Assembly: GCA_030141605.1 (NCBI GenBank)
Contig: JAQGDQ010000003.1
Coordinates: 701,501-765,500 of the forward strand
From: Tubiluchus corallicola
Lineage: Eukaryota; Priapulida; Priapulimorpha; Priapulimorphida; Tubiluchidae
Length of the DNA: 64,000 bases
Direction: 5' to 3'
Part shown: positions 989 through 59,515 of the stretch, one piece after another
How positions within the stretch are numbered: the first letter of the stretch is position 1
Layout of the letters: each line of letters opens with the position of its first letter
The notes under the pieces: generated by a model
Told to the model about the DNA's origin: nothing
The model's input: only the letters and a program-made list of their open reading frames with translations
Database searches by the model: none
Program-made: the position numbers and the translations under genes

Positions 989-1284
989 TACAGTTCATGC
1001 AAATGTGGCACATGTTTTGCACGACACCTTTCAAATATTTCTAATTTTCTATAGAATACGTTGATGGGGCTTAAACTTTTCTAACGTATTAAATGTGCTA
1101 TAGTTAATTTTTTTGTAAACCCGAGATACCTGAGATTATATTTTGTATTCAAAAATGTTTAGTAGATGTGTTGTTGTTGTATTAAAAAAGTACAAACCAC
1201 AATCTAAAAAAGTTATTTTCATGTACCTATTATAATGTCGCAATGCGTGTCAATTTTTGTACTTGAAGAATTGAGCTACTTCAG
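989..1284 (+). other. Intron remainder upstream of first exon
   Basis: AT-rich non-coding sequence between the transposon right end and the acceptor at 1284. I see no further exon. Confidence 0.5.
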
Positions 1285-1386
1285 AAATCGTTAAAGAAGT
1301 CGCGCAAGAGAGCTAGAATTACGGAAGAAAGGGAAGACGAACTTATTTCGAAGGCTCTGTTGGATATGGAAACAGCAAGACTGAAG
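1285..1386 (+). CDS. KIF20B: KIF20B-like exon 1 of window
   Basis: Acceptor cttcag before 1285 and donor AAG/gtttgt after 1386. 34 codons, phase 0 at both ends, beginning KSLKKSRKRARITEE. A basic stretch leads into coiled coil (ELISKALLDMETARLK). It has no start codon, so coding sequence continues upstream of the window. Confidence 0.72.
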
Positions 1387-4300
1387 GTTTGTAACTCTTT
1401 TTAAATAATCTTCAACACTCTGGGTTATTTTCTAACTTATTTCTGGCCTTTCAATCTTCTTAAAATTGAGTTATCTGATAATTGACTGTTTTTCATATCA
1501 GTTCACTTACCAGTTTAATAGTATGAATTCTTATTGTGTTCTTGATAGAAGCATCAGATCTAGCTTTTTTTATCTCGTTTCTTCGTTTCTTGATTGTGCA
1601 CTTCAAGAACACTTATTGCGGCATATAGCAGTCCAGCTGCATGTTTGTTTAACCATAAAGTGCTTTGTTTGGTCCTGCTATGTAAAATTACTAAACAGGT
1701 AAAAATATATCACATGTGTAAAAAATTTTATGTGATGGTAGGAGAAAGAACACCAAGTGAGCGTTCTTCAGCAAAAGTTGGAGGAATCACAACGTGATTC
1801 GCAGCTGCAGATTGAGAAGCTGAAATCTGTGATAAAACAGTCAGGACTGGATCGAGCTAAAACAGTTGAGGAAAATTCCAACCTGCAATTTAGATTGTCA
1901 GATGCTAACACAACTATCAGCAAATTACAGCAAGAGCTCACTAGGTACGTTTCTGTAAGTTTGTTTAAGGTAAGTGAGGTATGCGTGCGTGTGTGTGAAT
2001 GTCAACCACATTTTAGCAGTGCAGCTGTTGACATATCAGCTTTTTCATAATGGAACAGTTACATATGCAGAGTTAAATTATACTTATGTTAGAGTAACGT
2101 TACTTTAATGTAAAGAATTAGTGGTGAGTATTGTTACAAATTTTAATAAATTTCTTACCTTTATCAAAGGCAGTGCTAAGAAACATTTTTTGCAGTGGAA
2201 ATAGTCTGTCGTCACAATTTCAGTGCGAGGAAAATCTGTATTGATTCCGAAAAGGTGGTTAGAGACTTAAAAAACTGAAATATGGAATCTTGGGAAACCT
2301 TTAATGTTTCCTTTACTTTGTTCATAGTGACGTGCTTCCTTTACTTTGTTCATAGTGGTGTTGAATGACTTTTGCTTGTATGTCGGTCCTGTTTTTTTAG
2401 CCTGTTTGACAAGACTAATAGCACGGAGGAGAATGAAAATGAAATGAAAGTGCTTTCATTGGCTGCTGAAAATGAGTCCCTCAAATCCTGCGTTGAAGCT
2501 TCAAACACTCGTCTCACATCGTTAGAGCAAGAACATACTGTGCAAATGGAAGAGATATCACAGAAACTACATGATGCTGAGGAAGAAATTAACAGATTGA
2601 AACAAAGCATAAGTAACCATGAACAACAGGCAACAGCTGAAAACAAAGACGACAAGGTACGTGGTACAAGAGGTACTTAATCAGAATTACCGTAAGGAAA
2701 ATATCAAAAAATAAATGCTATCTGGTGTGATATTTTTCTCTTTTTTTATACCAAATCATAATGGCTGTTGGTCGAACCAATAATGACTACTTAGGATGGC
2801 GAGCCTTGCGAATCAACTAAATTGCTGCCACACTGCCATTCAATGTGAAGCACAGTTGTAAGAAGTGGCTTCCATTTAGATGTTGCATTATTTTTGATAA
2901 TTCTGCATGCCTGGCTGTGACTTGGATGGATATTTATGTTGTTGGTATGCTTAGCCGGGAAGTCGAATGCACAGTGTGAATATTGTGTGACTTCAGCGGT
3001 CGCATTTCTAGTTATGGCACCTGCTTCACAAATTTTCAATCACATGCTCACAAATCTATGCCGTAATTTTTTTATTCGCAAGGTGCGTAAATATTGTAAA
3101 CATATCAGGGTCATAATTTTGTTATATTTTGCCAGAATCTTCGCCATGACTTTTTACGAGAATCCAGAGAATCAAGGTCAAAATTACACATTTCAAGTAT
3201 GATGAATTATAATTATCGAAACAGCAAAGATTAAATTTCAATTAAAGTGATTTATTAATCCGCTATCAGAACTGTCGCCTTTTTTAGAATGAGACGTAAC
3301 ATTTCCTGTTTCGGTCTCCAAGCTATTTAGAATTTTGTTAATTCTTCACTTTGTCAATGAATTCACAATCATCATTTCCTTCATCAAGAAATGTATCACA
3401 AGCATTTGAAACGAGAAGCGCTTTAAATTTATGCAAAATACAAGAAATTTTACTGATAATTTGACAAATTGTCTGCTTAATTTTACACCGTCTGCCAAAA
3501 GTTTGCGTTTTTGTTGGCTTGGCAACGAGCATAGATCCCTACAATTTTTACATACAACTTTGAATGAAAAACGCAGTGCGTCAAAGACACTTGTGAAGTA
3601 ACTAAGTAATATCGCCAGTGCAATGTGACAGCGTGCGTATGCGCTAGCGTAAGGTAGAGAGCAAAAATGTCAGATTAATGCCAGTATTTCTTTATTTTTT
3701 AACGTTCAAGTAAAACCTGCGCTAATCTAACCAGATTCGCAGAAAAAGGCAATAGCGCCAATGTTTACTCGAATGGATTCGCATCGAAATTCTGGCTCTG
3801 TACATTGTTACAAGTTTTGGTTCTGATTTGCATGTATGGATAAAGCAGCATCTTTTTTGAGAAGCTCGAGTATGTTATAATGTGTTTACTACTTGGGAGT
3901 GTAGTAACTTACCACTTTCGGATAATTACTCTGAAGCTTTTCGTGAATTTTTTTCAAGTATTTGTTGCATTTTATAGGGCGGGAATAGGCCTGATTCTTC
4001 CAATGACTTTTTACATTCTGAAATCATAAATGAACTGCAGCGGCAAATTCAAGATGCTAAATCAGTGCTTCTTGAAAAGGTAATGAAGCAGTAGATGATT
4101 AGATTGAGTTTAAATTTAATGATTAACTGTGTTCAAGAGTGGATATTTGCATTACAGTATGAAAAGTATGAATATTTTCAAATAAAAATATTTTATTGTC
4201 AAAATGTAATTAAACGTGAATTTTTAAGTGTCAATAATAAATTGCTGTTTTTGGCATCATGTAATAAATTTGTTTAGGACATAATTCAAGAATAACACTG

Positions 4301-7300
4301 TAGGGAATAGTTAAATTGATATAACTGGATGCATGTACAAATTGTTTTTTTAGGAAGCTGAAAATATGGAATTAAACGAAATGTTACAAGAAGCAGGAGA
4401 AACATTCCAAGAAAAAGATTCAAATATTAAGCAGCTGGAAAAGACCATTGAACAGCTGAAAACACTGCTTAACCAGCAAGAAGAACGACTAACAGCACAG
4501 GTATGCTAACACTTTAACCTGAAACAAATCATATACGTCTTGGTATCATGAATTTGGCAAATTATTTTTATAAAGATTTGCATACTTTTGAGCTCATTTA
4601 GGAAACTGCTAACTACACAACTGTTTAAGTCAACTGAAAAAAGATATTAAAGTGGCTAAAGTTAAAATGTTATTTTTATTTTACGAAGTGCAAAAATCAA
4701 TGTTGCCTAAAGTCATTGTGCTTAGCTAAAAACTGTATTTCAGATTTCCTTCAGTGTCATAATTATACTTTTCCGTACATAATTCTTGCAGTCTGTAATT
4801 TGAATATGGGGAAACTAACGTAATATGTTATTAAATAATTTTATTTTTAAATTTGCTGTATGAACTGTCACTTCTCTTTTAGGAAACAGCAATGAATGAG
4901 CAACAGATTCTCGAAGAGCAAACCAGCCAGGCTCTTCAAATGGCAAATAACAAGCTCAAGGATAAAGACGAAGACATCGTTCTACTTAGAACTAGATATG
5001 GTGTGCCCGAAGGTAGCTTAGTTAATACTGGCCTGAATTATGTTAATGAAGCAGTTGATAATATTCCTACTATAATTAAGAATAGAAATAATGTTTGTGG
5101 TAGTGGTTTTGATTCTCATGTAACAAATGAAGTAAGTTCCGTGCCAAAAATTGTCATATCTGCATATGATGACGACGACGAAGTGTTTCCTTGTCAAAGT
5201 CGTCACGAAATTGTTAAGTCTGTTGACATGCAATCACAACTTTCAGTCAATGCTAATAATCATTTACTGCTTAATGACACTTTGCCATTTGGTTCTTATG
5301 CTGAGTCTGCAGATAATTTTGGACTGCAAACAGAGAAGGAAGTTGTTGTCAATGTGTCAAATGAAAGAAAGATTGTTAAGGATAGGTGTATAGTAGCGCT
5401 GCCTGAAGCTAGTGTCTACTGCACTGTTGATCTTTCAATTAAAGAAAACTTGCACGAAGACACAGAAGAGAATTTACAAAAGCTTGGCAGTTCTGTTACT
5501 GATAAGCCGCCAGAAATAATAACGAACTCTTCCAACGATGGTAGTAGTGACCCTAATCATGACATCAATAGAAAAGAGAAAGCTAGTGAGGAACAAGATA
5601 TAACCGATTCCTTAGAATGTAATGCATGTGTGTTAAGTAATAATAGTTTAGATGTTTGTGACAACAGCATCCAGGAACAAGTAGATGAACAACTTGAACA
5701 ACAAGATTTAACAAATGCTGTGGAGTGCGACACTAATGCAATAAGCAGAGATAGCTTGGAAGTTGAAGATTCTCATGATTCAATTGGCGTATCCTTGCAA
5801 AAAGTGAACACAGAGTTTGGTTGTAATGGTGCCTACAGAGAAGTAATCAGTTGTTCTGTGAAATTAAGTAGACTTACTGATCTAAAAAATAATCTTAACC
5901 TTACTTCTGGTCATGGCAAAGTAAGTGGTGCTGAAATTGTGGCAACACTGGACACTAATCACGATGGTGAAGAAACGGACGAAATTAGTATGCCGGCGCA
6001 TGAAGATAATTATGATGACGAATCCGGCCATAAGCACGTGATTGGAGAAGAATTAAAAAAAGTGAACGATTCTGCTAAAGAAACACCAATGAAAATAGAA
6101 GCAGGAGAAAACAACGTTGGCAGTGATGTGCCTGTTAAGGTTTCTTCAGAAAGAATAGAAGTAGACTCGGATAATATGAACAAAAACCCTAATAAAGAAA
6201 CTGCAGAAAAATCTGAAGCAGAAGTTAATGAAAGAAACTGTGACATAACTGGTGGTATAAAGAGTAGGGAAGCAGACATGGTTGACAGAAACAAATACTC
6301 GGTTGAGGAAACTCCAACGAGTGAAAAAGCAGATATTGATGAGAGGAGTAAGAATTCCAGTAAAAAAAGCTCAGAGAATGTGGAAGCAAATGTGCATGAT
6401 ACGATTAAGGGCAATGTTAGACAAACTTCAGACAAAGTGGAATTAAATGTGGATGCAGAAGTAAACGATGCAAAAATTAAGAAAATGTGTTATGTGGAAA
6501 TAAGCCCATTGTTGAAGGGGGTTGATCCAATGCAAACAAACAAGTTAGGTACTAGTCCAGAATCTAGAATGTCTATGCCAAGTACGGAATTTAGAGAAAC
6601 TCTTATGTGTCGTGGCATCAAAAGAAGTAGAGATAAGAGTGCACCTATTATCAGTACAAAATCTCTTCTTGTGCGTTATGGTGATGAGAATGTGGATGAG
6701 CCTTCACCAAAGCTTCAAAAAACTTCATGTAGCCGATACAACCAAAAGTCTTCCAAGTCGACAACGAGTTTATCTGATAAAAGTCGTGTCATACGAAAAA
6801 TTTCTTTTGATAAGAAGCGAAGAACTAGAGCCAGCAAAATATCAGACGTAAAGATGATTAAAATTTTAAAACAGTTAGAATATGATGAGGGTGAATCGAC
6901 AACAGTAGGCACTAGCAGCTCAGTAAGTAAAACAAGTGATAAACGTTTATTTGACAATGTAGGTAAGGAAAATGCAATTCCGCAAGTGAATAAAAATCTA
7001 CAGGTTCACCATTTGCAGGTGGAAGACAAGGCATTAGTTCCTTCCAACAAGCTTTTACACACGCCCAAGAGTGCTTTTAGAGCTAGTCCTCAGACAAAAA
7101 TTGTGCGCGAGAATGAGAGGCCCCCTCCTTCGCCTTCTGCTGGACTTGCAGTAATGGAAGAAACTCTTCACTTGTCCTCGTCACCAAGAAAAGTAACCTT
7201 CAGGCACACTAAAGCAAGCAGGTTGAGAATATCAAAGTCTCCACTTTGTGGTGGTTCCAAGTCTCGTCTTTGTGTTTCACCTGGACAGCGGAAAAATGTC

Positions 7301-10300
7301 AAAATCTGTCAGCAGAAAAGATCATTGAGAAGAAAGTCATCACTAATGATTAAGAGAAGATACAATACAAGATCTCGAGCAAAGTGATTTTGTTCTGCAG
7401 TCCAGCCATAGTTGTCAGTGAGAGGTAGAATAGTTTGCGCGCTAGCTGGCCAACACACACATGTAAAGCAAAGCTTATATTGTATGAATTTGAATATATC
7501 GTATGTTATGCATTTTACCTAAGGCATTAGTTTTCATGCTTAAAACTAAAATTTTCACGCTAATGAATAATTGGCACTTTTTCGTTTGAATATTACTCAT
7601 ATGCTTTGACTAAACAAACTTGTCCTTTGGTAATTTCTTAAAGTATACTTAGACAATTTTCTTAAGAATACTGTTGCAGGATGTTTTAAGTTTAATCTGA
7701 CATATAAACTTATCATTATACTTACCTACACACTTTCTGGAACATCTTTCATATTATCCATGATTTTTTTCCTCTGAGACATGGCGTCACATTAATGTAC
7801 AAATAAATAAATAATTTCATTTTAATAGGAAGTGTACAAAAATATTTTTGCATTTATTAATGGTGATCGTAATGTGCAATGTTTCCTCATCTGTTATTGT
7901 ATGGATAGCGCTGTGTTTATCTTAACATGCAACGCCAGTTTGTGTAATTATAGTCGTTTAGAATCAATCATAGATTATCTTACTCAATTAATTTGTAGCT
8001 AAACTGAGGTGGCTTTACAAAAGCATTGAATAAGAGTATGAGTAAAATTTTTTGTTGTGTTTTTTAACTGCCACACATTGGTCATTTATCTGTGCATTAT
8101 CTATGATGACTTACATCATTGTGAAATGTTTTCCCTTTTTTGTGTATATTTTGTATTGAAAGTTTATATTACATTTCTGTAATTTTCTTAATAGACAAAT
8201 TATTTTTCATACAAGGCTATGCAAGAATGTACAGCATCATTTGATTTTGCTGAACACATGAGCATTTGAATCATGTTGCAGAAATTTATATTGTCTAAAT
8301 TTAATATTGTGCATTCAATGTTGCTGTATAATGTACATTTTAGAAAGTATATGTATGAAACAGCTTGCTTTGTTTACATGTACTATAGTTACTTGCATAG
8401 CTGAAGAATTAATAAAAAAACTATTTTTCTCGTTACTACCTCTTTACTTAATTCGGTTGCATATATGATTGATCATTTGACGTTAATTGTAGTTGATTTA
8501 TTATGTTATTATTTACTTCTACTCCTATCTCCAGGTGTCTTGCACAAACTCATTGTTCTGTATTAATGTGTTATACTTAATTTGAATTTACTAAAAATTT
8601 ATGGCTGAAACGTTCTTTGGTTTTGTAAAAAGAATTGTTATATGGTGCACTTGTCAGTTATAATAAACTCACGTTTACGTTTTAATTATTATAATATCAT
8701 AATTACTGTTGTACGTTGTATTTTACCTAAGCAGCATTTTCTTTTAAGTCTTCACCAGTGATTCGTGCATATGTGAAAATGAGAAAACTTGACTTACAAC
8801 GATGAGTAGGTTTTTTATTAACAAATTGTATGCATTGTCTTGAAAACATTTTTCTAACAAAGTCTCTAACAGTATTGAAAATGCTGACTAAGATAAAATA
8901 CTATACGATACTTGGCCTAGTTCTTTATCAGTTTTTCTCATTTCACAGATGCACTGGTCACAGATGATACAAACAAAACATACGATCAGCTCAACACCAC
9001 AAATGCCTTACTCGAAAAGCAAAATACCAGTATGGCTGAACAGCTTGAGGGTTTATCAAAGCAGCTGTGTCGTTACGTGGATGAAAATGAAGTGTTAGAA
9101 AAGAAACTGGAAACTGCACTGTCCAGGTAAGATCTTTTTTGAAGACTATGTATATAAATAAACTTAGCACTCAACATTAATTTGACAGTTAGATGCTCAG
9201 TTAGATGACAGTTAGATGCAACTTGTTCGTATCAGTATGGATCCTAAAAGTTCCACATTATCCCCTACTAGTGGAGTGACAGCACAGTTTTTTGTCCACA
9301 TTCTGTACCAGTGGAGCAAACAGCACTGTTTCTTTTGTCCACGTAATTCTGTACCAGTGAAGCAACAACAGTTTTTTCCAAGGAATTTAAGCTGCAATAA
9401 TATTTCATACTTTGTGTTTCCTTGAGTGATTTTTATTATGTTAGAAGTCGGCAAAAAAGAGATGAAAATGCTGCTTGATTGTTGATATATGATGCTCAAG
9501 CAGAATTTGAAAAAAGCAAGCAATTTAGTATAGTACTGATAACTGAAATTTTTTATATCATTGAGTTTAAATTAATGTTGAATCAGATAAGGCAAACACA
9601 TTTAGCCAGCTGCATTTGTTTGTTATGCAGATGTAGAGAGCTAGAGGAACAAAAAGTTGAGATGGAGAACAAGGAAACTTGTATGTCTAAAATTGCTGAT
9701 TGTGAAAAGAATGTGGCAGTGCAGGAAGCTGTATCTACACTCGAGTCCGAAAAGCATAATCTGCTTCTTCACATTAGTGAACTACAAAACGAACTTGCTG
9801 CAGGAAAAGATGAAATAGAGACTCTAAATAGTTTGTTAACTGAATCCCAAAGTTCAGCATACGATACTAACAGGCAGTTAACAGCGCTCATGAGTCAGCT
9901 AGAAAAGATGAAAGAGCAGGCTATGGAACAACTTAAATCTGTAGAAGTGATGAAGGAAGAAAATGAGAAGCTGATTAATGCAAATAAAACTCGAGAGGAC
10001 GAGTACCAAATGCAGGCAGAGTCACTGAGAAATGAAATTGAAGAGTTGAGAAATCAGCTTGCACAAGGAGGAAATGAATCGAGTCAGGTGATGTTCGAAG
10101 AAGTGCATATGTTGAAATGCCAGGTTTGTGATTTGCAGTCTGCATGCACAATGCAGTCGGACATGATTTCAAAAGCAAATTCCAAAACAGAGTGTATACT
10201 CAAAGAGCGTGATGAAATTAAACTGAAATTCACAGAGTTACTGGCAGAAAATGATAACTTGTTGCAAAGGACAAAACTAATATCCGGTGAAACGCAAGAA

Positions 10301-13300
10301 CTAAGTGATAATCTAAACGCTGTTACTAAAGAGCGTGAGCAGCTGTTAAAGGAAAAGAGTGAATTACTGAGAGAGAATAATTTGCTGACAGTTACTATTG
10401 CTTCATTGAAAACAGAGGGGAGATCTTTGTTGTGCGATAAGGAAAATGAATTAGTTTCTCTTCGGGAGCAGGTTCACATGCATGAAAAAGAGCTGGAATC
10501 AGCTAAAGAGCTGTGCGAAAATTACAAGGCGAAAGCTGACATGATAACAAAAGAAATGGAGTGCCAGAAAAATGCGTGGATAGAAAGTGAGGAAAAAGTG
10601 CAGGAAAAAGCAAAAGATATAGTCATTAAGTTAGCAAATGAAAGAAAAGCACACACTGAATCTAAAACTGAACTGGAGAATGTTATGGATTTGGTTTCAA
10701 AAAAAGATGGCATCATTAAAGAACTTGAAGCTAGTTTGAGCAATTTGAATCAAGACTTGGCAATGAAGGTGGAGAATGTTGAAGTTACTCGAAAGGAAAT
10801 TGAAGAACTTCGCTCAAAGCTGAATGCGATGGCGCGACAGAAAGAAGATGAAATTTCTTGTGTGCATGAAAAACTGGAGTCATCACAAGCTGCAGAAAAA
10901 ATGCTGACTGAAAAATGTGTTGAATGTCAAAAACAAGTGGCTAATCTAGAGAACAAAATAGAAGAGTTCCGTCACTCAGAAAAGCAGTTTAACGTAATTG
11001 AAGAACAAGATAAAATTAAACTTGGCACTTTGGAAAAAGAATTGGATGCATTGAAACACACAAATGAAAATTTAGTTGAGAGGGATGAACAAAATGAAAA
11101 GAAATGCTTGACATTACAAATTGAGATAAACCAGCTAAATAACACTATAGACAAACTGAAGGAAACAGAAAAGCAAAATGAAAGTCACAGTGCTGAACTT
11201 CAGAAGGAATTGATTTTGGTGAGACAAATTGAGCAGAGAGCTCAACAACTTAATGATGATAAATGTTTGGCTCTGCAAAATGAATTAGATGAGTTCAAGC
11301 AGCAAGTACAGATTCTCAGAGAAACAGATGAACAAAGTAAAACTCGTATTGCAGAACTGGAGAACATATTGGAAGCATCGAAACATGCCGCAGAAAATGT
11401 AATTGCTAAAGATCAAGAGAACATTAAAAAGTGTTCAACTTTGGAAGTAGAACTTAGTAACCTGAAGCAAAAACTTGCAAGCCTCAAAGAACAAGATGAG
11501 CAGAGCAAAAAGCAAGTAGTAGAGTTACAAAATGAGCTTTTTGTATTAAAGGAAAGAGAAAAAAGCTTCATACTGGAAGGAGAACAAAGTAAAGAAAAAA
11601 TATCTGAATTGACTAGACAGTTGGAAGAACTGAAGCAAAATGAACAAAATCTGGTTGAGTCAGCTGAGCAAGCTAAAAACCACCTCAGGGAAGTCAACGA
11701 GAAAAACTTAGAACTTAGTAACCTGAAGCAAAAACTTGCAAACCTCGAAGAACAAGATGAGCAGAGCAAAAAGCAAATAGTCAAATTACAAAATGAGCTT
11801 TGTGTATTAAAGGAAAGAGAAAAAAGCTTCATACTGGAAGGAGAACAAAGTAAAGAAAAAATATCTGAATTGACTAGACGGTTGGAAGAACTGGAGCAAA
11901 ATGAACAAAGCCTGTTTGAGTCAACTGAGCAAGCTAAAAAGCAGCTCAGAGAAGCCAACGAGAAAAACGAAGCCGAACTTGGTTTTTTGCAAAAGCAGCT
12001 GGAAACTTTGAAATATGCAAATGATGAACTGATAGAAAAGAAAAGTGACGTGTCGAAACTAAACGAAAGGTTAAAACTGGTGAGTATAGCATCTCTTCAG
12101 TCAAACCTCTTTATACCGCCTACTTTGGGTCTAGAAAAAAGTTGGCATTATAGCGAGTTTGGCATTATAAAGGGGGCGTTATAAATTCTTTATAATAACC
12201 TTTATAAAATCTCAGACTTTTAAAGGTCAGACTTTTAGTTACTACCAAAATTACCGAAATTATGAATAAAAAATTTCATCTCTCTTTTTTTTTTAAATTT
12301 GTAACACTATATATGATAATCGTATATGTTCATTTTGTTGCCAAAAATTTTGGAATATCTTATATTGAATTCTGTTCCTGTTGTTTTAAAATTTGCCAGG
12401 AAGAGGAGAAGATATCAGAACTAAAACAAACAGTTCGAGATTTGGAAGAGGAGGTAAAGCGTAAGGACATCAAAATCAATAACAAAGTGATGGCTATTGC
12501 CGACCTCAAAAATGAGAATGAGTCAAAAACAATCAAACGAGATCTTTTAACAAAAGGTAAGTGTTTTTGTCTTTTTTATTCTATTTTTTTATTGATTATA
12601 TTCTTACATTTGTGCATGTGTTTCCAAAGTTCCAACTGACTATTAATGCCTGTGGTTCTGTGATCAGTGCCGTGAAATCATTTTCTTAAAGTATTCATGT
12701 CTATCATTTATGGTGATTTCAGATTTGTAAATTTGTAAAGCCAGGTTTTGACGGGCACACGACCGTTTCACAAAGACCAAATTTTTTTTAAAGTCTAACA
12801 GCCACCAAAAAATTTATGCACCATGTTTTGTCGTCCAGGTCGCAACTCATTTGTGCAAAGTTCCAAATAATTGTGCCGCTTTCTTGAGACTTTAGGGTTT
12901 TTTCTTGGGGACTGTGTGACATCCTCGCGAGTAAGTTGGATCATTTCACTACCATTTCAGCAGACGAAATTTTTGTAGGAAAAAATGCCAGACAATCGAG
13001 GTTCTCCAAAATGTCACAAAATGTTGAAAAATAGTCGCAAAGCCATCTCAACATTTTCAAAGGCATCTCAAAATGCTGACCAATGTTTTTGTGTACTCCA
13101 AAATTGTTGACGAATGTCACGAATAATTGAGAACATTGTGCGCATGTTGGCGCATCTTTAGACAACTTTGCAACATTTTGGAGAGGTTTTGACGAGGTTG
13201 GGGAACTTTTGGAGCATGACTATCGGATAGTTGCTGAAACCCCATGAAATCCTAGCTTAAATCAAACATGGTAAAAACTGCTTTGTTCATGACATGTGTT

Positions 13301-16300
13301 CTGCATTATGGGAGTTCCTTAATTTAGCTCTAGTCCTCAACTCTGAAGGCTCCCATTTATCGAGTTGCTAAATGCTAACCTGCTTACCAGGTTTCTGTTA
13401 CGTAATTGTATTAATAAAAGTGGTTTCATCTACTAATATGTGTAGACAGGTTAACATGTTTAAGTCATTTAAATTGCCTAATTGTACCTTGATTGATTAT
13501 ATCATGTGTAGATAATTTATTAATGCTTAACTCCCATTAATAAAGATGAATATTCAGCACGTTAATATTATATATATTATTACTTAACTCGTAGTCCCTG
13601 CCAAAGAGCCCTAACTCAAGCTGACAGAATACGTAGCATTTGATAATGAATAAATCACTAATGTATGACATTTGTATGAGTAACATAGCAAACATGAACA
13701 CAGAGAGAAAATAAATTTCTGCTGGCTTCCATTGTTGCCGGGTTTTCATATAACTTATTCATATTTGTCTTAACTATTTTCTTCTTTCTATAAAGATGAT
13801 AATCCACTAAAAGCAACTGTTATGAATTGCCGATAAATAGAATTGTACTAGTTTTTGAAATAATTAATTTTATGCGGGTTAATCTATATGACATCGATTC
13901 AGAAGGCATTTTTGTCATTTGTTGCATCTTTAGATGTTGCAGAACAAGCAGAATTGATCAGCCAGTTAAAAATGTTGGCCACAGAACAAGAAAGCACAAT
14001 GGAGATTCAGGATAAAGCTTTGAAGGATAAAGAAAATGAAGTTACAATTTTGCAGAATGGTATGTTCTAGTTATGTAATTAATGAAATACTTTTCAAACT
14101 GTGGTTTTAACAGGTTTTCTGAACTTTGAAGAGTTAGTTCGTCAACATCGCATAACGACAATTCTGTTGCAGTTCTATCTGCTGAAACAGTGAATTAAGG
14201 AAATGTGTGCTTGTGTCTGTGTGGTGTAGTTTGACAAAAGGCAATGCTGCAAGCCAATGTACTTGTCTGTTTGAGGAAACTGGAATTTATTGAACTTAAC
14301 AAGAAATTTTCATCAGAAGTTTTCTTATCTTAAGCTAAACTTTTCTTTAAGAATCTAGTCTATTCTGTGCCTTCAAATGTAAAAATTGTTTTCAGACTGA
14401 GATGGTGATGATGTCTACATATGACTTGAAGGGATGAATGCAAACATTCTGGCATTCTTGTGTTAAAATCCCAAACTTGGTTAATTTGGCAAAGCCTAGT
14501 GTAACAAAATTTAAAATATAAATACGTTTAGTTAATGGCTCAAATTAACCGAGAGTTCGTCATGAAACGTTAGGCTAAAATAAGAAAATTAGAAATCTAA
14601 ATAAGTTTAAAAAGTTACAATGAAGGTGCAAATGTAAAATAACTATAGATTCTGTAATTTCTAGTGCAAGATTTTACAGAATGCAAGAAATTAATTGATA
14701 TACATAGTCTAACTGAGTTTCAGGTTGTCGTGTTATCCAGGTTATCCTGTTGTCCAGGTTATATACACTGTCCATATATTGTTGCTTTTACACTTCAGCA
14801 ATGTGACTACACACGTAATTCCAACTTCATATACTGATGATACGGTACACTGCTGAAGTTCAAATTATGGCGATAATTGCATTAATGCAGACTGTAAAGC
14901 ATAGAATAAAATATTAAAAGCCTTGCATCAACAAATAAATTTGAAAACCATCTCTAGTTTTGTCGATTATTGTTATTGTTGTTGTTGTTGTCGTCGTTGT
15001 CGTCATCGTCGTCATCATCATCATCATCATCATCATTATTATTATCATTGTCATCATAATTAATTATTGTCCTAGACATGAAGAAGCTGGCCGACGATTA
15101 CGAACAGAAACTCAGAAAAATTACTGAAGAAAAGAAGTCTAGCAGCCAGCTTGCATCTGCTCTTGAGGAGAGCAACAAAGAATTGAAGGAGCTGGAAAGA
15201 TTATATGCAGGTATATGTAATACCAAATCATGGGTCATTGTCTCGTTTTGCAGTCTTTTTAATCCTCGTTTTACAGTAACGTAGTTTCTGTTGGGTTCAT
15301 ACATGTACTAACAACTTGCTGAAAACTTGATGTCTCATATTTTTATAGACCCGACGTAAAATAACGTGTATTTTGTGTATCAATCAATATGTTTGTTATG
15401 TGTTAGCTGGTCTTTTTATTTATACTATTCTTGCAGAAAGTCAGAAGCAATTGGAGACTTTAAAGTTGGAGCAGGACAGTCATATGGAAGCCAAAACATC
15501 CTCTCTACAAGAACAAGTTGCTAGCAAACAGAAAGAAATTGACAGTCTCAGTCGCGAACTCCGTATAAAAGAAAGACAAAAAGAAAAACTTTGCGAGGAG
15601 AACAAAGAAAAAGATGTTAAAATGCAGGTATGGGATGTTTACTTTGATTTCTCTTTTATTTTTATAAATCTGGTCTTGGTGACTGAAGTCGAGTATTGAG
15701 AGGCATGAGTGTATTTCTATAACTGTTGTTTCTTCTTATTGTGACTACAAGATTATAAATAATGCATGTGCTGTTCGCTGTTGACCAACAAGCCTAGCAG
15801 TTTACCAGTGCTGCTAGTGAGTGTTTCTAGACAGTCTGAGCCCGAAGGTTCCCCTGAATGTGTGTAGGGATCAATTGTATGATAAACTTATTTTAACTAT
15901 GCAGTATTTATAATATCAAGTTGTGTTCTCAGTAGTCAATGGCTGATTTTAATAGCAGCTTCAAGAAACATGACAATGCTTCGGTGATCAACGTATTCGT
16001 TTTGAAAGATCATTAACGGTTGACAGGAATGAACAATGATTTCATAATTTACAAAATTATTCACACTTTATTTAGTTTTATGATGTTTCGTATTTTGAGT
16101 ATTCTTAATCAAGTGCTTACAGCAGATTTAACTGTGTCAAAAAATAAGTAAAAGAAATACAATTTTGATGCTTATATTTGCGTTCCAGTTTGCGGCTTTG
16201 CCGAATTGTTATTTATACAATTCTTCATCAAGGCGTTTAGTCGCACTGATTATGAAATTCCATTGTCTCTCTACTTGGTTTACCCATGTATACTGAGCTG

Positions 16301-19300
16301 TGATGCTACATGACAACTAAAAACCTACTAAACATTAATGTTTATTTCAGAAATGGAAAGAAGAAAGAAATGAGATTGTTGGTAAACTGGAAACAGTGTT
16401 GAAGGCACACTCGGCAGACTTGCGAACGAAGACAGCAAAAATTCAAGAACTAGAAGATTTGCTCAACAGTGGCGACCAGGTTAATATCCTTGCCACATTT
16501 TAAGTTATAATTTGCTTGTAGATGCTCTTGCTTCACTACATATCTCAACAGCTCCTGATTTTACACCAAAGAAGAAATCTACTGAAGTTATAATATTGAG
16601 GCAATAGTTGTCCTAAACATATATTTGTATATGTATGCAAGGAAACAGGACAGTGAACTGTACCGGGTCAGTGCTTTTGTTCTGAAAAGACTACTTTTAT
16701 GACTGTTTGTTTGTTTGTTTTTTTTACATTCAGTTTTGGGTTTTTGTTTTCGTTAGTTTGCGGCCTTTGCTATTTTATTGTTTTTGTTTACCTTATTTTA
16801 TTTTATTTTTATTTTTTTGAAATTATTTTACATGAAATAATTATTTAAAGGAAACAGTATAATTTTTCAGATCTTGCTCATTTTTAAGTACTGTTTAAAA
16901 ATTTAAATTTTAAATGTACTGCTGTGCTCATGTATGATATCTCACACGTGTGCACTGAATCATATCTGAACTGAGCGGTACAGTGCCTGCTTATTGTGCA
17001 ACACGTTTCCAAGATGCAGACGCTAGTATCCATCTAACTAGTGAATAAGGAAATGGATGTAACAACGAAGAACTTGCCGCGCTAATGCGAAATTAATTTT
17101 CTGAGGTAACAATTCTTTTATGTAAGTCATTCATGAAAAAAACAAAAAAAAACAATTTTATACATTAGATATTTTGAGCAAAGTTTTAGATTGGGTCCTG
17201 TTTTCCTTTTAACATGTAATGTTTTATTCCCATATGTTTAATTCCTTTTTTTAAAAATGAATAAAACTGCTTTTTTAATTTATTACATTATCACCTGAGA
17301 TTACTGACTGTAGTCACATGATTAATTTATATTTATGGTTAGGTTAACGTTCTAAAGCAGCAAATAAGTGAGAGTGAAGTGACTATAGCAAATTTGAAAA
17401 GCAAGTCGCAGCTTCAACTTGAGAAAATAGACCATTTGGAAAAGCAGTTGTCGGTGAAGGAGAAAGCCGTTGCATCAAGTCACACTCCTATGACTAGGAG
17501 TCGAAAAACTCGCCATGCCTTGCAAGTTGTGGAAGATGTAGGTGATGTGGACTCTAAAAAAGAGGTTTGTGCTATATTGTGCTAAAGATGGTTCTTAACT
17601 TCTTATTTTATTTCTCAGCAATTAGCCAAAATCTGTCTCAGTAAAAGCAAATGTACAATAAACATACTGTTTTGTCAGATCAGGAAGAAATACGATGATC
17701 ATCTCCCAAACAAATTCTAACTTTCAGTTTTGGAAATGTGAGTGGCCCATTCATTGCATATAGAGACAAAGAACTCGAGCTTGAATAATGAACTTGGCTG
17801 TTTTTGTAGTCCGGACTTGTTGTGATGTCAGCCTTCTACTAACATGAACAACTATTGAAATGACTCGTATTAATACACTCGAGAATATGTCACAATAAAT
17901 TTTCACTTTTTTAGGATGCCACACTTAGTCAGCAGTTGATGGAGAAAGGCAAAGTGGTTGAAAATCTGAAAATTGAATCTCAGCATCAAGCTGAGACAAT
18001 AGCTCGTTTAGAAGCAGAGCTGTCAGAAAAAGCTAATGCACTTGCAGCGTCTTGTACACCAGTAACAAGGGGACGGAGAACGAGACATGCTCTGAAACTT
18101 GCAGAAGATGATGATAGTGTTGATGTGTTACGGAAAGAGGTAGCAATACTTTTTAACGTATGACATTTCGTAATTCAATTCAATTCAATTCAAATTTATT
18201 TATTACCTCATACAATTCAATAGGGTGTTTTGCTTAAATATGGTAGTTAGCCATAGAAAATAAACAGAAAGAGGTCGGGTGGTGAAAAACCTTCAGGTCA
18301 CCTGACATCCACCCCTTAGTACTCAATTAATAGTGTTGATGAAATTTAAACAATGATGTTAGTGACATTTGGAGAGGAACATATTGGTTTTTTTTATGAA
18401 AAGATACATTTGGTCATAAAAAATTCAATTGTTTGAGCATTAGTATTATGGTGTAGTATTAAAAATAAATTGTAAGAACTATCCATTGTACGAGCAAAAC
18501 AATGGTAGCAAAGTTGTCAATAAGTAACAAAACATTAAGGAATTCGGCAAAGCAATATATAAAGAAATGTTAAAAAATACTCAGAAATTTTGCACAAGCC
18601 AGTAAAAAAACTCAGCAGAGCAATAAAGCAACGAAACAAAAAAGTAAACTTCATTCTAATGTACAAAGTTAATCTAATGTATTACCCAGGTATGCTTTAA
18701 AGATCTGTATTAGCAGCAAACTACAAAGGTGGATAACATATAATTGAATGCTTAGCAGGGACAATTCTTAAGTACCATAACATACTTTCAAAACAAGGGA
18801 AATAGGCTCCAGGATAAAATGCCAATAATCAGTCCAGGCAAGGTAAGCAGCCAAATTCAGTAATCACTATATACACTATATAGTGAATGAAACCACCCAG
18901 AAAAAGTATTGAACCCTGCAGTCATCCATCCATTTGTTGACCAGCTTTGTTATTGCTTAACTTGGTTATGTTTGACCATCATCATACAAACTTGTTTTGT
19001 GTGGTTTACAAGGAAATGCTATCATTGCTAAATTTTGTTTATTTTTATTTTAGCTGGAGAAGGAAAGAGAAAAGGTTGCTACATTAAGGAAACAAGTCAG
19101 TGCTAGCTTACGCAATGAAAATGACTTGAGAGGGGCAAATTCGCAGTTGCAGAGTCAAGTTATGCAACTTGAGGTCAGTGCTCAGTTAGATTAAAGTGCT
19201 TTAAATTATATAGTTATATATGTATTAATATTAAAATGATTAAAAGTTTCACCTCAGTTTTAATCTTGTTTAATCTATGGCAGTCTTTGTTAATTAGGCC

Positions 19301-22300
19301 TAATAACAATAGACATTTGAAATGAGCTGTAAAATGTGAATTTTCTGTAGATAATTCACTAGTTGTGATTAAGATCTTGGCTTAATAAGAAAGATGCATG
19401 TATGCAGTATCCATGCGTAAAATGATTTCTCATAACAGTATATGTTAGAATTTATTGAGTAAATGCAAGTTGCAAATTTACAAGCTTTGTAAGAACAAAT
19501 TACTGTCTGTGGTTTGTTCTAACAAATATACGTGTTGCACTGATGTTTTCAGAGTAAAAAACAGTGTTTGTGATGCCCGTTTCGTGGCCTTTTTTCTATT
19601 AGGTTTGTGTAAACCTTAGGGTTAAAACTTTTCAAAGATTTATTGTCGCTGGGGCATAAGTAACTACTTAGTACTGGCTGGCAGTTATACATGCTTTTTT
19701 AGCATCTCGTTTTTTCAAGTTCTGTAACAAATTTTCACTTTTCCACACAAATATCTTGAGCGAATCAGCATTTGAAAGTTAAGCCTGCATATTTAAGTTG
19801 GCATTGTTTTAAAATGAGATTTTTGGGATAATAACATGTTAAATTAGATTTAAACTATTGGTTTTGTTTAGAGCGTTGATATTATTTTTTGTATTTATAA
19901 TTGCAGACTGCTAGAAGCTACAAATAATTGCCAAACCATATACTGTTATTTCAGCATCTTATTTTATAGACTTGGTGTAGTACTCAGGTATATTAAGACT
20001 ACGATCAGTGTACATTGAGTACAACTTAAGAGTGATATGTGAAAACATAACACATATGTTTCTATAGAAGTGGAACATGAAAACACTAAGGAACATGTCA
20101 CAATCATGGTCTTACGAAAACTCTGGTCTAAATGTTTTACCACAATACAAACATTCACCTTTCTTTAAGATTAAGATTTAGAAGGAGATGCATCGCAGAA
20201 TCTTCTACTCCCTTCATTGTAACTCCATGACTGTCAGAAATTTGACATCCAATTCGCTCATTTACAATGCAACTTTTGTCGCTGTACTTTGCTTTTTTTT
20301 TTTGCTGTGCATAATTCAGTAACAATTACTGCTTTTTATGAGGCTTACACTTGGTATTATATTTTAGGAGAATGTGAAGGACTATTTTGCTAGCGACAAT
20401 GTTCAGGAAGAGACAGAGCCCCGTTTACAAATAGATGTTACACCTGCTCAGGCAAAAACAAGTGCAACAAAAAGCAGGTCGAGGAGAAAGCAGATGACAG
20501 AAGAGGTTTTTTAATTAATTTAAAAAATTTTTGAGCCCAAATCTTCCAAGTATCAGTAAAACTGTTAATTCGTTATCATAGTTAATATAAACATAGCAGT
20601 CAAACTGATCCAGGTTGTGTAATATAGGGTTACTTGTTTATTGAACTCTTTTTGCGCAACTGCCTGCATATGTCATTTAGAATATCATTTATTTTTCAAT
20701 GAAGTTTCCCAAAAATTTAGAATATGGACAAACTCTATTGTGACATCACAATATAAGAATTGGCTAAAAACTTGTTAGATGAACATGGACGGGCAAAAAA
20801 TGCAATTAATTCTGTACACTCTATTTTGAGTTACAACTCACAACTATTGAGATATAAATATAACAACAATCAAAATGTGGATAATGCTAAAATTGCAATT
20901 TCGCAGTTGTCTTTAAGTGCTCTTACAATGTGACCACAATGAGTAGAATCATGTATTATTTGTGAAAGATATTGTGAACTCAATCAAGCATAAATAGTTT
21001 GAATTTTTGAACAGAAATGAACTTAACCTGATACTGATATGTCAAAATGAACTTATGTAATGTATTATTTTTTATAGTACTCTCCTTGACTAATTATTTA
21101 TTGTCCGTTTTTGTTTAAATTATTATAATGTGTAAATATTCGTATTTTTCTATGCTACTAAGAAATTTAATATTGTACAGCAATTCCAAAATAAATAGTA
21201 ATGATAATAATAAGAATGAGAATCAAAATCAATATTAACTTACCAGCCCAAAAATTGCTAGTTTATTAAAATCTATTCTTAACAGTCATTATATCTCTTT
21301 AGAGACGAAAATGAATTGAGCATAAAATTACAGCAACTTGCAGGGAAGCTTTTACTTTTTTTAAAGACTTTTGTCCAGTTGCTTACCACTTTCGACAATA
21401 TAAGGGAAAACAAGAACAATGACAATGTGCTGCTCTAGTAAAAAGAACTCTAAATAGAGCTGCTTATTCTGTCATTTCTGATCTTAACCATCAAGTTTCA
21501 CTCATTTTGAAAGCATTCTAAATGAAAATGTAATTACATGAGCTTACTTGAGTTGCCTTCCAGATTAAGCCAAAGCAGGAGTGCAATGTTTTTTCCTATT
21601 AAAAGCATGTGATTTTGATTATCATCGAATGTTGGTTTTTAATGACGTCAGATTACAATGTTATAAGCTTATAAGCATTCCTACTGTTGTGAAATACCAA
21701 ATCTTGTTAAATGGAAGTTTTGTTAACTTAGCTCTTTTAGTTTACAGTTCACTTAGTGAAATACTTGTTTGTTCAGGGTGAAAATAATGCAGATGAGGTT
21801 TTTGAAGTTTTTGGACAAAAACCTATTCGGTCGTCGAAGAGAACTGCCCTGTCTAAGATCGGGCACATTGTGAACAACAACAGTCCAATTACTAAAGGTA
21901 CATTTAAACTTTATTGGTCCGTATATTATAAACTTTATACCTTGAAGTTGAGTTATTAACTCTGCATTTTAAATCATAGTCACTGTAAAGTTGCCTAGAA
22001 GATTCAGAAATGCCTCACTTCGAACCAGTTTCTTTATTTGCCATTGAAATTTCCTCTTCCATCGAATTTTTATTGCAATAAATTTGCATTATTTCTTATT
22101 GTCATAATATTAGCTTTATAGTCAGATGTTCATCAAATTTAAATTAGCTTTTTTGTTTGAACTTGCACATGCATGTTTGAATGCAAAATGAAATCAGTTT
22201 TTGAGTAAGTGCTCCCTGCTTGTTTTTGCAAGGATCTAATAGCTACTCGTGTTTGTTTCATTTCTACATAAAGCTAATATAAATATTGGGTTTAGATGAA

Positions 22301-25067: not shown

Positions 25068-25820
25068 GAACTTCAAAAAGACTCAGTCATCGAGGAGAAA
25101 CTAACTACGGGATACAAGTAGACGAACTAACATGCTACTTTGTCTTCCATTGTGTGTACAAAAAATTATCCACTGCCCCGTTGGTATAATGTAAAATCAT
25201 CGTTGCTATTTACGATTAGTTTAATTTAGTTGCACTACATAACTAACTTATTACGTTTCACCATAAGTAAGCGCCAGCTAATTCAGGCACTGAGCATTTT
25301 TGATGTTAGTGACGTTGTGCGTCAGACTTAATGAACTTTGTCGTTTGTATGTACTTCTGTATGCTGCCCTTTATGTAAAATAATATATTTAATCAGTCAA
25401 ACTTTTGATTTGATGTTTTCTGAAATTGAATGAAATCTGTGTGCGTTTGCAAAGACAATACAGAATTCTAAATTAATGAAGAATAACATATTTACAAACA
25501 CATTAGGAAGCATTTTAATACACTAATTTCACACAAAAATACGTATTCTTCCTCCTGTTCCTCTTATACAGTTCCATTAACAATTAAACACTGCTAATGG
25601 CTTTTTTCTTACTAACATTTCACTTGAATAGATCATTTACATATAACTAGGATATATTGTATGTATTTAATTGTTAATCATTAGGTTTATCTGTAATCAC
25701 TGGTCTCTTTTAACCAGTCACAATATATTTAGTCAAGATACTACAGCTGTATGTTATGAAGTAAATTTAAACAATACTACTGAACAATTCCATGACTTGT
25801 TTATGTTCACACTTAGTTTA

Positions 25821-30714: not shown

Positions 30715-33700
30715 CTAAATTAGCATAATCATAACATTTATATGCATAAAAAACTTCTAAGTGGCTGTAAATATGAATTTTTTGTGCACAGTATTTGCAA
30801 AAAAATTGGGAAATTTGTGTGGATTCCTTTTGAAAAGTTTCTTTAAAAGACTCTTGCCTCTCACAAAATGAAACTATGCCTACTCCGCACTAGTATTGTA
30901 CTCAGTTATGTAGTTCAACACCAGAAATAAATTCGGGTCTCCCCATCTTAAGCTTTGCAAGTTTTGAAAAAAGTGGCCAAAAATTACAAGATTCTCTTCT
31001 CGCTGTTCTAGACAACTGAAAAACTAACTTCTAATGAGATGATGGGAAATTAAGTGCAGTTGTTTGTCAAACTCTTATCAACATGCAAACCTGGATAAGA
31101 CTGGCTGATAAAAAAGCAAAAATCAGCTTCACGTTACTAATAAATAACAAACTAGAGTATCATTAAAAATAATAAACACTAACATCGCAAAATGCAAATT
31201 TTGTTCAAAGTGTCTGTAATCAAACAAGTTTGTGCTTGCTCTTAACTGGCCTGTTTAACAAGAAATATCTAATGCACCGAAGCAAACATCAATTTTGTAA
31301 GCCTTCGTCAGTCTTTATCATTGCACTTGGAACATGGGGGAAATTCTAAGACAAGAGTACAAAGCATAAATAAATACATTTAGAATGCAAGCACAAACAA
31401 TTACATACTACATATACACAATTTTTTGCACTAATTTTGCTGCAAATTTTTAACGCTAAAATCTTGATATTTTCATACCTGTTGTGGGGAATTGTCACTA
31501 TCAAACTGCACAGGCATGTGGCTAGGTTCAAGTGGTGAACTAGCTATGGTGTTTAATTCTGGATGCTGTAGAGTAGGCCTTAAACACTAATAAAAATAAA
31601 TTTTATCATGAATATAAATGAGAATGAATAATTACACTAGAACTAAAAGCTAACAGTTGTGTATCACATGTAAAAAAATATCATTGGTCTAGCTGAATTA
31701 AATGCCTGACTTCTCGGCAAGTAAAATGTTTAACTAGTCATCAAACATATAACGCAGATGTGACCCATCAATATTAATGAATTATTACTCTTCTATAATA
31801 ACCACAATATTTACAAAAGATTATGACATTAGTTAAGTAGAACTGTTAGTTCATAAGGTATCATGAAAAATTGATATGAAATGCATGCAATAACTGAAGA
31901 AAGGTCTCAATCTCGAATGTTCCCATCCCTTTGCTTCTGATCCAGAAACAAAAAAAAGGGATTGTGACCCTTGTTATTAAGTCAAACTGGGGCAACTTTA
32001 GTTGTTATTGCTTGTGAAATATGCTTATGTTACATACAGAAACACATTAATTATGTGATGCATGTAGTAGATACTCACATGAAAGTTTGTTATTTCTGCT
32101 GACAAAATTGGAGACCAACTAAATGAAGTCTGTAAAAAGTGTCATCAAACAATAATTAGTATATAAAAAGTAATATAAAATTGGTGATACAAAAAGTAAA
32201 ATACAACACTGACGAACACAAAATTTTATTAACGACCTGATACAAAACAAATAAGACCAGGCCCTGTTAAGTGGAAAGCCAAGTCCAACATGGTATCATA
32301 TGTAATCACTTAATAGGATAGGTATTCTAATTACTCGTTGATTCAGTATAACCTTTATCCTACAGAAAAATGTGAAATTGGCAGTGCTGTACAGTGTAAA
32401 AGCTGAGCGCTGAAATGAAATGTCAAAAAAGGAAAGGGAGTCTACACAGCGATTTTGGTTTTCAATGTCGTTTCATAAAAGCAGAGATTCGTTTTGACTC
32501 TGCAGAGGCAATTCAAGTTCCTCAGGTATTTTAATCACAGTGACCAGAAAGTTGTCATATTTATATGTAAACTTATCACATAGTAATTTATGTAATTACA
32601 TACCCCTGTCATTTTGTAGAAGTCTATAGAAGGACGATGCTTTTCCTTTGCTCTCCTCCTTTTCATATTTTTCTTCTGCGACACACACGGTTGTGACTGA
32701 GTACGTGCTAGACGTTGTGCGTTAGCACACCTGCAAGCTGCCCTACGTGCACTATTTAATGAGATGTGATCCTCTGATAGCGACAGACTACGAATTTTGA
32801 AGTGATCTTCTTCAGTTGAATCTAGAGGTCGAGAAAATCTGCAGATATCGTACGGCTTACTGGTAGCCGAAGAGGGTCTGGGAATTGGAGACCCGCTAGG
32901 GCTAATACCGCTGACACCAAAGTTTGGTGTGCCCAGTAATGACCTAAGCTCAGCCGATCCTAGAGAACCATGCAGTGAGCTGGGTTTGTGTAGACTACCT
33001 GTATGACCACAAAACAATTTGTGCGAATTGCTGTTGTGCCCAAACATGTCGCCACTAGTGTGGCGCTCGCGACAGAAAGCTGTGTCGCCGGAGTAGTGTC
33101 GTTCACGGAAGAAATCGCGGTGCATGAGAGGCCTGACATCGCTCCAGCAAGTACAATTACCCTGAGATAAAGACTGCATGCTATCCTCATGATAGCAGCA
33201 GGGAGTGGACAGAGATCGGCAGTGGCGTTTCTTTGGTGGCGCTGATGAATGTGCAAATCCAGTATGAGATTCTTCTAAACTCAGTTGTGACTCTAGTGAT
33301 TGGTTGAGGTGCCCTTCATACTGCTCAGCAAGTGGACCTTTGTGTACATTGCTAGAATAGTAATCTGAGCTCTGTCCACTGTCATCTGTGCCATGCCCAA
33401 TGTGCAGTTCTTTTTGCAAATTGCTATCATGAAGATTTGTGTCCTGCCCAGTGTCCCTCATCAATGATGCCTGATGCTGCTCACTATGTTCACACACGAA
33501 TGGAGTCCATTCAATTTGCCGGCTTTTATCTGTAAAAAAACATTGCTGAAAAATTGCCACCAATATAAATGTCATCCCTCTGGAAGTAAGGCCAGGTTTA
33601 TGGGCACAAGTCAGGGAATATAATACCTATCAAAGTCAAGAAGTTAGATGGATGACTGTCAGAAGGTGGAAAATGTCTATGAGTGGTTTCACCTATCATA

Positions 33701-57003: not shown

Positions 57004-59008
57004 CTGCAGAGAGAAAGAATTTCATATAACGGAAATCAATGTATGGCTATAACATACGCCGAGAATGGTAAATTTAGCAGCTACAGTATTTACTGTGTAA
57101 CCAGGAAAAGTCTTGCAGAGACGCAACTATTTCATCCCACAGAAAAATCATTAATCTTCTCATATATTTAAACAATCCTAGCGTGAACTGTACGAAAGGT
57201 ATGAACTCACATCGAAGCACAGATCCAGTTGTACTACATGTACATAATATGAGTATAGTCACTTAGCGACGCCCGAAATGCAACAATGAACAACGAAAGA
57301 AGGTGTAAAAAATTCGGCCAGAAACGGTCGAATGTGTCTAAGTCGCCATCTAGTTGCAATGGGGCTTTGAGGCCAGCCCACAATCTGGCTACCATAGCAA
57401 AACCTACTACGACGTCGTTGCGTGGCTTTTATGTGATAAAGGAGTAGGTGATAAGTCTCATACACTTTGCCTATGCACGCACATACACTACAAATCTGAC
57501 ATAAAATCGGGCTCACAGAAACTATGCATTCAGAGGAACTGAATAAAACCAAATCATCGCCCATAATACACAAAGTTGCAACTTAACTGAGGTAATAATT
57601 TCAGCCAAAGAAAGAATTTTTGTACAAAGTTGGCTTGGTTTTGCCTTTGGTTCCTTCAAACTGACCCTTTTCTTTTAAATTATGCATTTTCAAATTATTA
57701 AAATTCTGAAATTCTGCACACGGGAAAATCTTAAAAGTGTATGTTTCGTCAAGATCTTCCAGTGTACAAAGATTATGGAAATTAACGCAAGTTGGATGCA
57801 AACTCAGTAATTGATGAAACTGTAAAAACTTAACACCTAAATCTGTTTATCACCATCGCGGCAAATATTTAAATTTACAATACGACATTGTGATCAACAC
57901 AAGGCTTAGTAATTTCGCTGCCTCTCCTTGTATGAAAATTCTAGAAGCAAAGCCAGCAATTTCCAAAGTTCAATAATGAAGTCATGTATCACGTCAATAC
58001 GCATTACTCGCATTACCAACTCATTTTTTATTTATGCATTGTTTACTACGCCAGTCTGCATGTGGTCGTATGCTGATCAAGAGCATCAGGCAAAGTGACA
58101 AATGCAGCAGCCTTGTAAACAACAACGCATCTAACTACAAACAATCAATAACTGAGGTGTCATAAGCAATGCAATAGTTCAGGAATGAGAGCAGAAATGA
58201 CAGGTAAACGTGCTTTCACCCGATATTATACATGTAGGAGGCGATTGAAAAAGCTCTTTGTGTAATTTCTAGCAATGAACATCTCAAACTCAAATTCGTA
58301 TATCCATTTCTAACACCATTTCTTTACTATTTAGCACTACTGGCGTTCCCCAGAACCTGCCACTTCGCAGAATGGCCAAATGACCTACGACATACCCTCA
58401 TTTCAAATAGTGTGCTGAGTAATCTTGCCAAACCTTTCAAACCAGCTAACGTGCTTTCCAAGTGCTTCGTCCAAAACAAAAGGGGCTTCACAGCGTTTTC
58501 TAGAAGCAGGTAAAAATGTGCACGCCCATTTCCTAAGTATACTGTCCCACGTTTGGATTTTGGATTCCAGTTGTACAGTACATAATACAGACGTTAAGAC
58601 ACACGCACAAACACAGAGACGGGTGTACACGTTAATTACATGTCATTTTTTGTCAAAAAAAAATTGCAGAGGCTTGCGTAACAAGTACCTTATTACATGG
58701 AGTTGAAAAACAGTCAGAGACTGAATTTAAAGGTTTAGAAGTATTGTACAATTGAGTAATGAAAGTTTTACTCGGTATAAAATTACAAACACTCAATGAA
58801 TTGTGTTATCCTGAGGCTGCATCCCAAGGTTAGAAGACAAAATTTAAGAGAATAGCTGACTACATGAACAAAAAGCTTCGTTCATGGAGCTAACCTGCAA
58901 AGTAATTCCTCGAATTTTAGAGCATTCAATCGGTTTTTTATCACTGTTCGACAAGCAGCCTAAGAACATTAGAAGAGAAAGTCAGACAAAGAGTAGATTC
59001 ATTACTTA
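57004..59008. other. Intergenic DNA
   Basis: Several 60-100 codon ORFs on both strands (e.g. minus 57801-57601, 58630-58403) show no recognisable family. Confidence 0.35.
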
Positions 59009-59515
59009 ATGTTAAATCCCTCCGCAAAACAACATGAAATTTATAAAGTTACCCTTCCAGATGCCCTTAGAATTAGCTTTAGCCGTTTCGTCCTGTCTTC
59101 TCACAGACTAAAAGTTGAGACAGGACGTTGGCATAGGCCCCTATCCCACACGACCAAAGGCTGTGGCCATGCAGTAACGCAGTGCAAGATGAAGAACACG
59201 TTGTTACTTTTTGCGAATTAACAAAATCGGTGAGAGAAAAATAGAACCTAAATTTACGTAACATTCTGTAGTTTCATTATATCGACTCTTTAACCTGTGG
59301 AAAATTCCTAAGCGACATTCCTAATTTATTTATGTCAGTGACAGTTAAGTTACCAAACATTTTGTTATTAAAATTTTATCTGGTTCTTAACATCTTTCTG
59401 AATGTTATGTTAAATTTTTACTGCATTTTTGTTTTATACTTTAACAAAATTTGCATACATGTAATCTTGTTGGTCTTTCTGACAATAAAAATACTACTGC
59501 TACTACTATTAATAT
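59009..59515 (+). pseudogene. Non-LTR retrotransposon ORF2 C-terminal fragment
   Basis: Reads LRISFSRFVLSSHRLKVETG (continuing RW), and after a one-base shift AVQDEEHVVTFCELTKSV. These are the paired (H)xLxxExGRW and C..VxDExHxxxxC motifs at the end of LINE ORF2. Downstream AATAAAAATACTACTGCTAC at about 59486 looks like the 3' tail. Truncated and frameshifted. Confidence 0.72.

Follow-up and report, generated by a model that had tools for sequence, protein, structure and literature searches.

A KIF20-type kinesin-6 gene with a candidate composite terminal exon that may give two alternative C-termini

The question raised by this locus is whether a single kinesin gene can supply motors with two very different C-termini, according to whether a splice donor inside one long exon is used or ignored. 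The window, the whole stretch of 64,000 nucleotides that was analysed (contig C1915, 701501-765500, in a genome of 343.5 Mb; positions below are those of the window unless a contig is named), had been read in an earlier note as containing a kinesin-6 gene with such a composite terminal exon. The data presented here leave this main idea plausible and on firmer ground than before.

Results

A long open exon in a KIF20-type gene

The exon that starts at 4883 on the plus strand contains 834 uninterrupted codons before the stop at 7387. In 60 simulated 64-kb sequences (Markov-1, with the same dinucleotide make-up as the real window) no open run on one strand exceeded 191 codons, which confirms the frame originally described. 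The exon has the acceptor TTTTAG/GAA (slashes mark splice boundaries) and follows the exon at 4354-4500 in phase 0. A Pfam search with its protein returned a single match, under the cut-off of that family, and the prokaryote and virus collections gave 71 and 7 pattern matches, respectively, none of which was confirmed as a relative.

The motor exons of the gene sit within 10 kb upstream of the window. When joined they matched the kinesin motor domain (PF00225) with an E value of 3.1e-74, and the top three sequences in the PDB were KIF20A (E 9.3e-94 to 1.5e-93), the next being 5x3e at 5.2e-44. These similarities support the assignment of the gene around the 4883 exon as a KIF20-type kinesin-6, in line with the family proposed previously. 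The motor is linked to the 4883 exon by seven modelled exons (401 residues), two of which lie before the window. The exons within the window are as follows:

1269-1386, plus strand: coil-like exon upstream of the composite exon (DP gene model)
1742-1944, plus strand: coil-like exon (DP gene model)
2401-2656, plus strand: coil-like exon (DP gene model)
3978-4079, plus strand: coil-like exon (DP gene model)
4354-4500, plus strand: coil-like exon ending in phase 0, which joins 8949 (phase 1) only with a frameshift (DP gene model)
4883-7387, plus strand: candidate composite exon, 834 codons and stop (open reading frame list, simulation)
7388-8948, plus strand: intron remainder or candidate 3' UTR, with AATAAA at 7802, 7806, 8411 and 8662, a number not above chance
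8949-9126, plus strand: first long-form-specific exon, phase 1 in, phase 2 out (frame joining)
9631-12079, plus strand: 816-codon stalk exon (DP gene model)
12400-19173, plus strand: eight further stalk exons at 12400-12556, 13934-14059, 15076-15210, 15437-15627, 16351-16479, 17343-17564, 17915-18157 and 19054-19173 (DP model, frame joining)
21777-25067, plus strand: three tail exons at 21777-21897, 23842-24005 and 24978-25067, ending ...LKKLRMRRK and stop (DP model, frame joining)

The exon model came from our own DP, in which codon scores were taken from the 4883 exon and 9629-12150, and were thus partly trained on the exon under test, while the splice scores were set by hand. Three of its choices were corrected: a spurious donor at 7384 gave way to the 7387 stop, the acceptor was moved from 8932 to 8949, and for its last exon, at 25572, we substituted the stop at 25067. 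For the 17915 exon the 3' boundary is placed only to within a few codons.

Joining one donor G to the 13 modelled exons from 8949 to 25067 generates a single frame of 1,441 residues whose sole stop is terminal, and the long form is therefore a coherent reading frame. These residues are largely coil-like, by eye. The stretches ...KKKRKLF... and ...HEIVLKKLRMRRK may resemble a KIF20B-type C-terminal tail; KIF20B itself was absent from the 60 PDB rows listed for the motor.

Several repeats were observed in and around these exons. The stalk exon contains a tandem duplication (11448-11968) of 260-nt copies with a spacing of 261 that are 93% identical, adding 87 residues. The adjacent exons 17343-17564 and 17915-18157 encode segments that are 51% identical over 67 residues, with a common basic TP.TR.R.TRHAL motif; at the protein level they appear to be a tandem exon duplication, and no repeat between them was found in the DNA. 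A separate 363-residue open frame on the minus strand (32535-33626) matches FAM53 (Pfam E 3e-15), which suggests that the host is an animal.

Other kinesin genes in the genome

Searches of the genome with three pieces of the KIF20 motor found 13, 9 and 4 matches, respectively, and those on C1915 were 80-98% identical. The next best match was a piece on contig C166 (60% over 40 residues), the others reached at most 55%, and for the third piece matches outside C1915 were only 31-32% identical. With these three pieces no second KIF20-type locus was seen across the assembly, which may be incomplete. The C166 contig carries a second kinesin-6-like gene whose best structure match, 5x3e (1.9e-52), ranks ahead of KIF20A (5e-40). 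The PDB table labels 5x3e 'Kinesin-like protein'; it is presumably the structure of ZEN-4. Zen4 is described as a relative of MKLP1 in a passage of PMC5602324, and the C166 gene appears to be an MKLP1-like kinesin-6. A family search of the genome listed 111 kinesin motor pieces, taken here as one group. Four further kinesins, on C349, C1556, C530 and C2263, have the entire motor domain in one open frame (698-1002 residues), unlike the intron-rich KIF20 gene.

Donors inside the exon

As the 4500 end is in phase 0 and the 8949 exon is entered in phase 1, there is no in-frame junction between the two, and the long form thus requires a phase-1 donor within the 4883 exon. All three such donors listed in the earlier note were found, together with the phase-1 entry at 8949, and each leaves a final G:

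5001-5002, plus strand: weak phase-1 donor ATG/GTGTGC (PWM)
5013-5014, plus strand: weak phase-1 donor AAG/GTAGCT (PWM)
6963-6964, plus strand: phase-1 donor TAG/GTAAGG, the strongest of the exon, whose bases also code V-G-K-E-N, KEN-box-like (PWM)
6963-7384, plus strand: 141 codons that only the short form would contain, whichever of the three donors is used; basic, with six [ST]P sites (frame, read-through, background windows)

The PWM scores of the donors at 5001, 5013 and 6963 were 5.67, 4.68 and 8.79, respectively. Compared, leave-one-out, with the modelled donors of the gene, 4 of 20 scored no higher than 5001, 3 of 20 no higher than 5013 and 10 of 20 no higher than 6963, which is therefore of average strength for this gene. 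The donor of a long form would most likely be 6963 and less likely 5001 or 5013. The exon contains 161 GTs, and since the background rate (0.54%) yields ∼0.9 donors scoring like 6963 in any phase, the mere presence of this donor is not significant. In addition, V-G-K-E-N reads as KEN-box-like by motif match, and a donor-like sequence would be expected at this position anyway if a KEN motif were kept. The telling feature is the length of the read-through rather than the presence of a donor.

Sequence past the donors looks coding

Read-through to the stop is 795 codons past 5001, 791 past 5013 and 141 past 6963, compared with 1-35 codons at 20 further introns of the gene model. Donor strength and read-through were both assessed on these 20, of 27 DP exon ends; the seven excluded (-7810, -4368, -1984, 7383, 18157, 21897 and 25063) read through for 1-28 codons, the range also obtained at five doubtful modelled ends. 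The extension past the donors thus resembles coding sequence, as expected of a composite terminal exon. Among overlapping 141-codon background windows on both strands of 26000-63990, 3 of 10,302 outside the FAM53 frame were fully open and 13 of 10,302 matched the coding score of 6963-7384. When the FAM53 frame was included, 35 of 10,734 were open and 13 of 10,734 reached that score; the windows overlapping FAM53 contributed 32 of 432 and 0 of 432, respectively. The last 141 residues contain six [ST]P sites, against 1.86 in shuffles (p 0.004). A second reading frame of 6963-7384 scores equal to the true frame (-0.091 each).

The 834-residue product begins with ∼43 coil-like residues, by eye, followed by a charged stretch. 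Its net charge runs from -20 (residues 44-250) and -28 (251-450), amounting to -48 over residues 44-450, through +11 (451-693) to +25 over the last 141 (694-834). By a charge-hydropathy estimate, residues 44-834 lie narrowly on the disordered side (0.412 vs 0.419) and the last 141 clearly so (0.404 vs 0.477). This is consistent with the disordered tail proposed for the short form, but most of that tail may be common to both forms: with 6963 as the best donor the long form may keep ∼650 disordered residues and diverge only from residue 694, leaving 141 codons specific to the short one. The short tail showed no similarity to the C-terminal part of the long form at E ≤ 1.

The region between the stop and the next exon

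Poly(A) hexamers after the stop had been cited as evidence for a short form. The 7388-8948 region contains four AATAAA, two of them overlapping, and no ATTAAA, where 3.5 ± 1.9 are expected for both together; the count is at chance level and gives no evidence for a signal. The poly(A) site of the short form would lie in this region. The same region was a place to look for a separate promoter or first exon. Its CpG o/e, 0.60, falls among the 0.50-0.62 of four other stretches and gives no sign of a promoter island, and the frame of the 8949 exon has an upstream stop at 8918 with no Met from there to the Met inside the exon.

Partial duplicates of the exon

The 4883 exon is present twice more, on contig C1336 (72.5 kb), at 63755-66235 (plus) and 57959-60139 (minus), 96 and 95% identical, respectively. 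C1336:56549-68323 holds them as an inverted pair that partially duplicates window 3433-9195, ∼4-12% diverged by segment, and dispersed repeats occupy a 6-kb stretch adjoining it. Also present in the duplicates are portions of the introns on either side and of exon 8949, but not the stalk exon. They were considered as retrocopies that might reveal splice junctions; this was rejected because the intron sequence in them shows that they were copied as DNA, and because the stalk exon is not duplicated. Indeed, a DNA search with 9626-12150 found no other stalk exon, only short dispersed-repeat matches at its 3' end.

In the plus duplicate the frame survives over 843 residues, with a single 1-base deletion close to the end and two indels that leave the phase unchanged; the minus duplicate carries two indels that break the frame and is truncated at 7103. 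In the plus duplicate 87 of 2484 sites differ in the ORF vs 131 of 1471 in 7400-8940 (p 2e-12), a comparison confined to these two regions; three other stretches, each short or poorly aligned (31/77, 3/57 and 26/122 sites differing), were excluded. The minus duplicate displays no contrast (75/2178 in the ORF vs 40/1146 outside, p 1.0). An excess of silent changes is seen in 5013-6000 (p 0.028 and 0.014 for the two duplicates) and not in 6000-6963 (p 0.39 and 0.37). Across 6963-7384 silent and replacement changes number 2 and 17, respectively, in the plus duplicate (p 0.95 for constraint), and 2 and 5 in the 46 codons compared for the minus duplicate. Constraint over the whole ORF is weak (p 0.13, plus; 0.045, minus). 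Ka/Ks against broken fragments is a weak test, and three of the seven silent-excess tests reach p < 0.05 uncorrected. The cores of the three donors are identical in both duplicates.

Discussion

A model with two forms and its alternatives

The reading that we consider likely is that of one KIF20-type gene with a composite terminal exon, in which donor splicing and cleavage would compete within the same intron. If the phase-1 donor (most likely 6963) were used, splicing to 8949 would add 1,441 residues, and the resulting long-stalked motor would end at 25067. Were the donor ignored and the RNA cleaved within 7388-8948, translation would run to 7387 and yield a short-stalked motor that, as the earlier note had it, would be without the 816-codon stalk (exon 9631-12079). 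Its tail would be long and probably disordered, with a basic last segment that is rich in proline-directed sites and contains KEN. On this model both RNAs would be made, and the balance of donor use and cleavage would regulate which protein is produced. The model is supported by the duplicate that keeps the frame nearly whole, and weakened by the chance-level hexamers, the equal second frame, the weak or absent constraint against the duplicates and the reliance on an exon model partly trained on this exon; the donors could also be decoys.

That the gene makes the long form alone, with a frame past the donor that is open by chance or as a relic, seems improbable. The hexamer count, the lack of visible constraint in 6963-7384 and the ordinary strength of the 6963 donor would all fit such a gene, but a 141-codon read-through is hard to reconcile with the maximum of 35 at the other 20 introns, with the three open windows in 10,302 outside the FAM53 frame and with the enrichment of [ST]P sites. 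The coding-like C-terminus of the 834-codon exon might also belong to a KIF20 gene that ends at 7387, with a separate coiled-coil gene starting in 7388-9100 through lineage-specific gene fission. The weakness of 5001 and 5013 would fit this reading, and the Met within the 8949 exon could serve as a start. We regard two such transcription units as quite unlikely, since the 8949 exon begins at an acceptor and requires one upstream base, its frame has no Met between the stop at 8918 and the one inside the exon, and CpG o/e is ordinary. The weak donors at 5001 and 5013 would also suit a gene that makes the short form alone and no longer uses its downstream exons; with 13 such exons still open over 1,441 codons, this is very hard to credit. 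The 141-795-codon read-through and the intact downstream frame thus favour a single gene with a composite exon, as initially proposed.

A more speculative extension, which we think doubtful, is that this one gene does the work of the two mammalian paralogues, providing KIF20A-like short-stalk and KIF20B-like long-stalk motors from one promoter, with the tail of the short form (KEN-like, proline-directed sites) under cell-cycle control. As the V-G-K-E-N bases coincide with the best donor (GGTAAGG), use of the donor would delete the KEN degron. If this were true, the length of the stalk and the turnover of the protein would both be set by one sequence.

Comparison with known systems

We found no literature on kinesin composite terminal exons with intronic polyadenylation by term search. 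Intronic polyadenylation at composite terminal exons is defined in PMC5928244, which also names KIF20B, in human tissues and immune cells, among the motor proteins whose intronic-polyadenylation forms retain enzymatic function without interaction domains. As in the known systems, the exon here is internal, ignoring its donor would carry translation to a stop in frame, with the 3' end of the RNA inside the intron, and the motor would be kept while the C-terminal part is lost. Unlike them, the predicted extension comprises 141-795 coding-like codons, where read-through at the other 20 introns would add at most 35. The human KIF20B isoform is, as described, alike in being a KIF20-type kinesin-6 whose truncated form retains the motor and loses interaction domains. 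If the host is not a vertebrate, this precedent would point to an early origin of the choice of RNA end in KIF20 genes, or to two origins.

According to PMC5374676, the stalk of mammalian KIF20B is two-fold longer, stalk length is one of the features that distinguish KIF20B from its relatives in mammals, and what the extra-long stalk signifies is described as not known. A locus able to produce both lengths would make it possible to test stalk function isoform by isoform. Mammals have both stalk types of KIF20-type motor, as would this genome, with the difference that here one gene would encode them and no second KIF20-type locus was seen. The arrangement of the gene is thus of a known kind; what is unusual is the size of its alternative C-terminus, in a genome where it is the one KIF20-type gene found.
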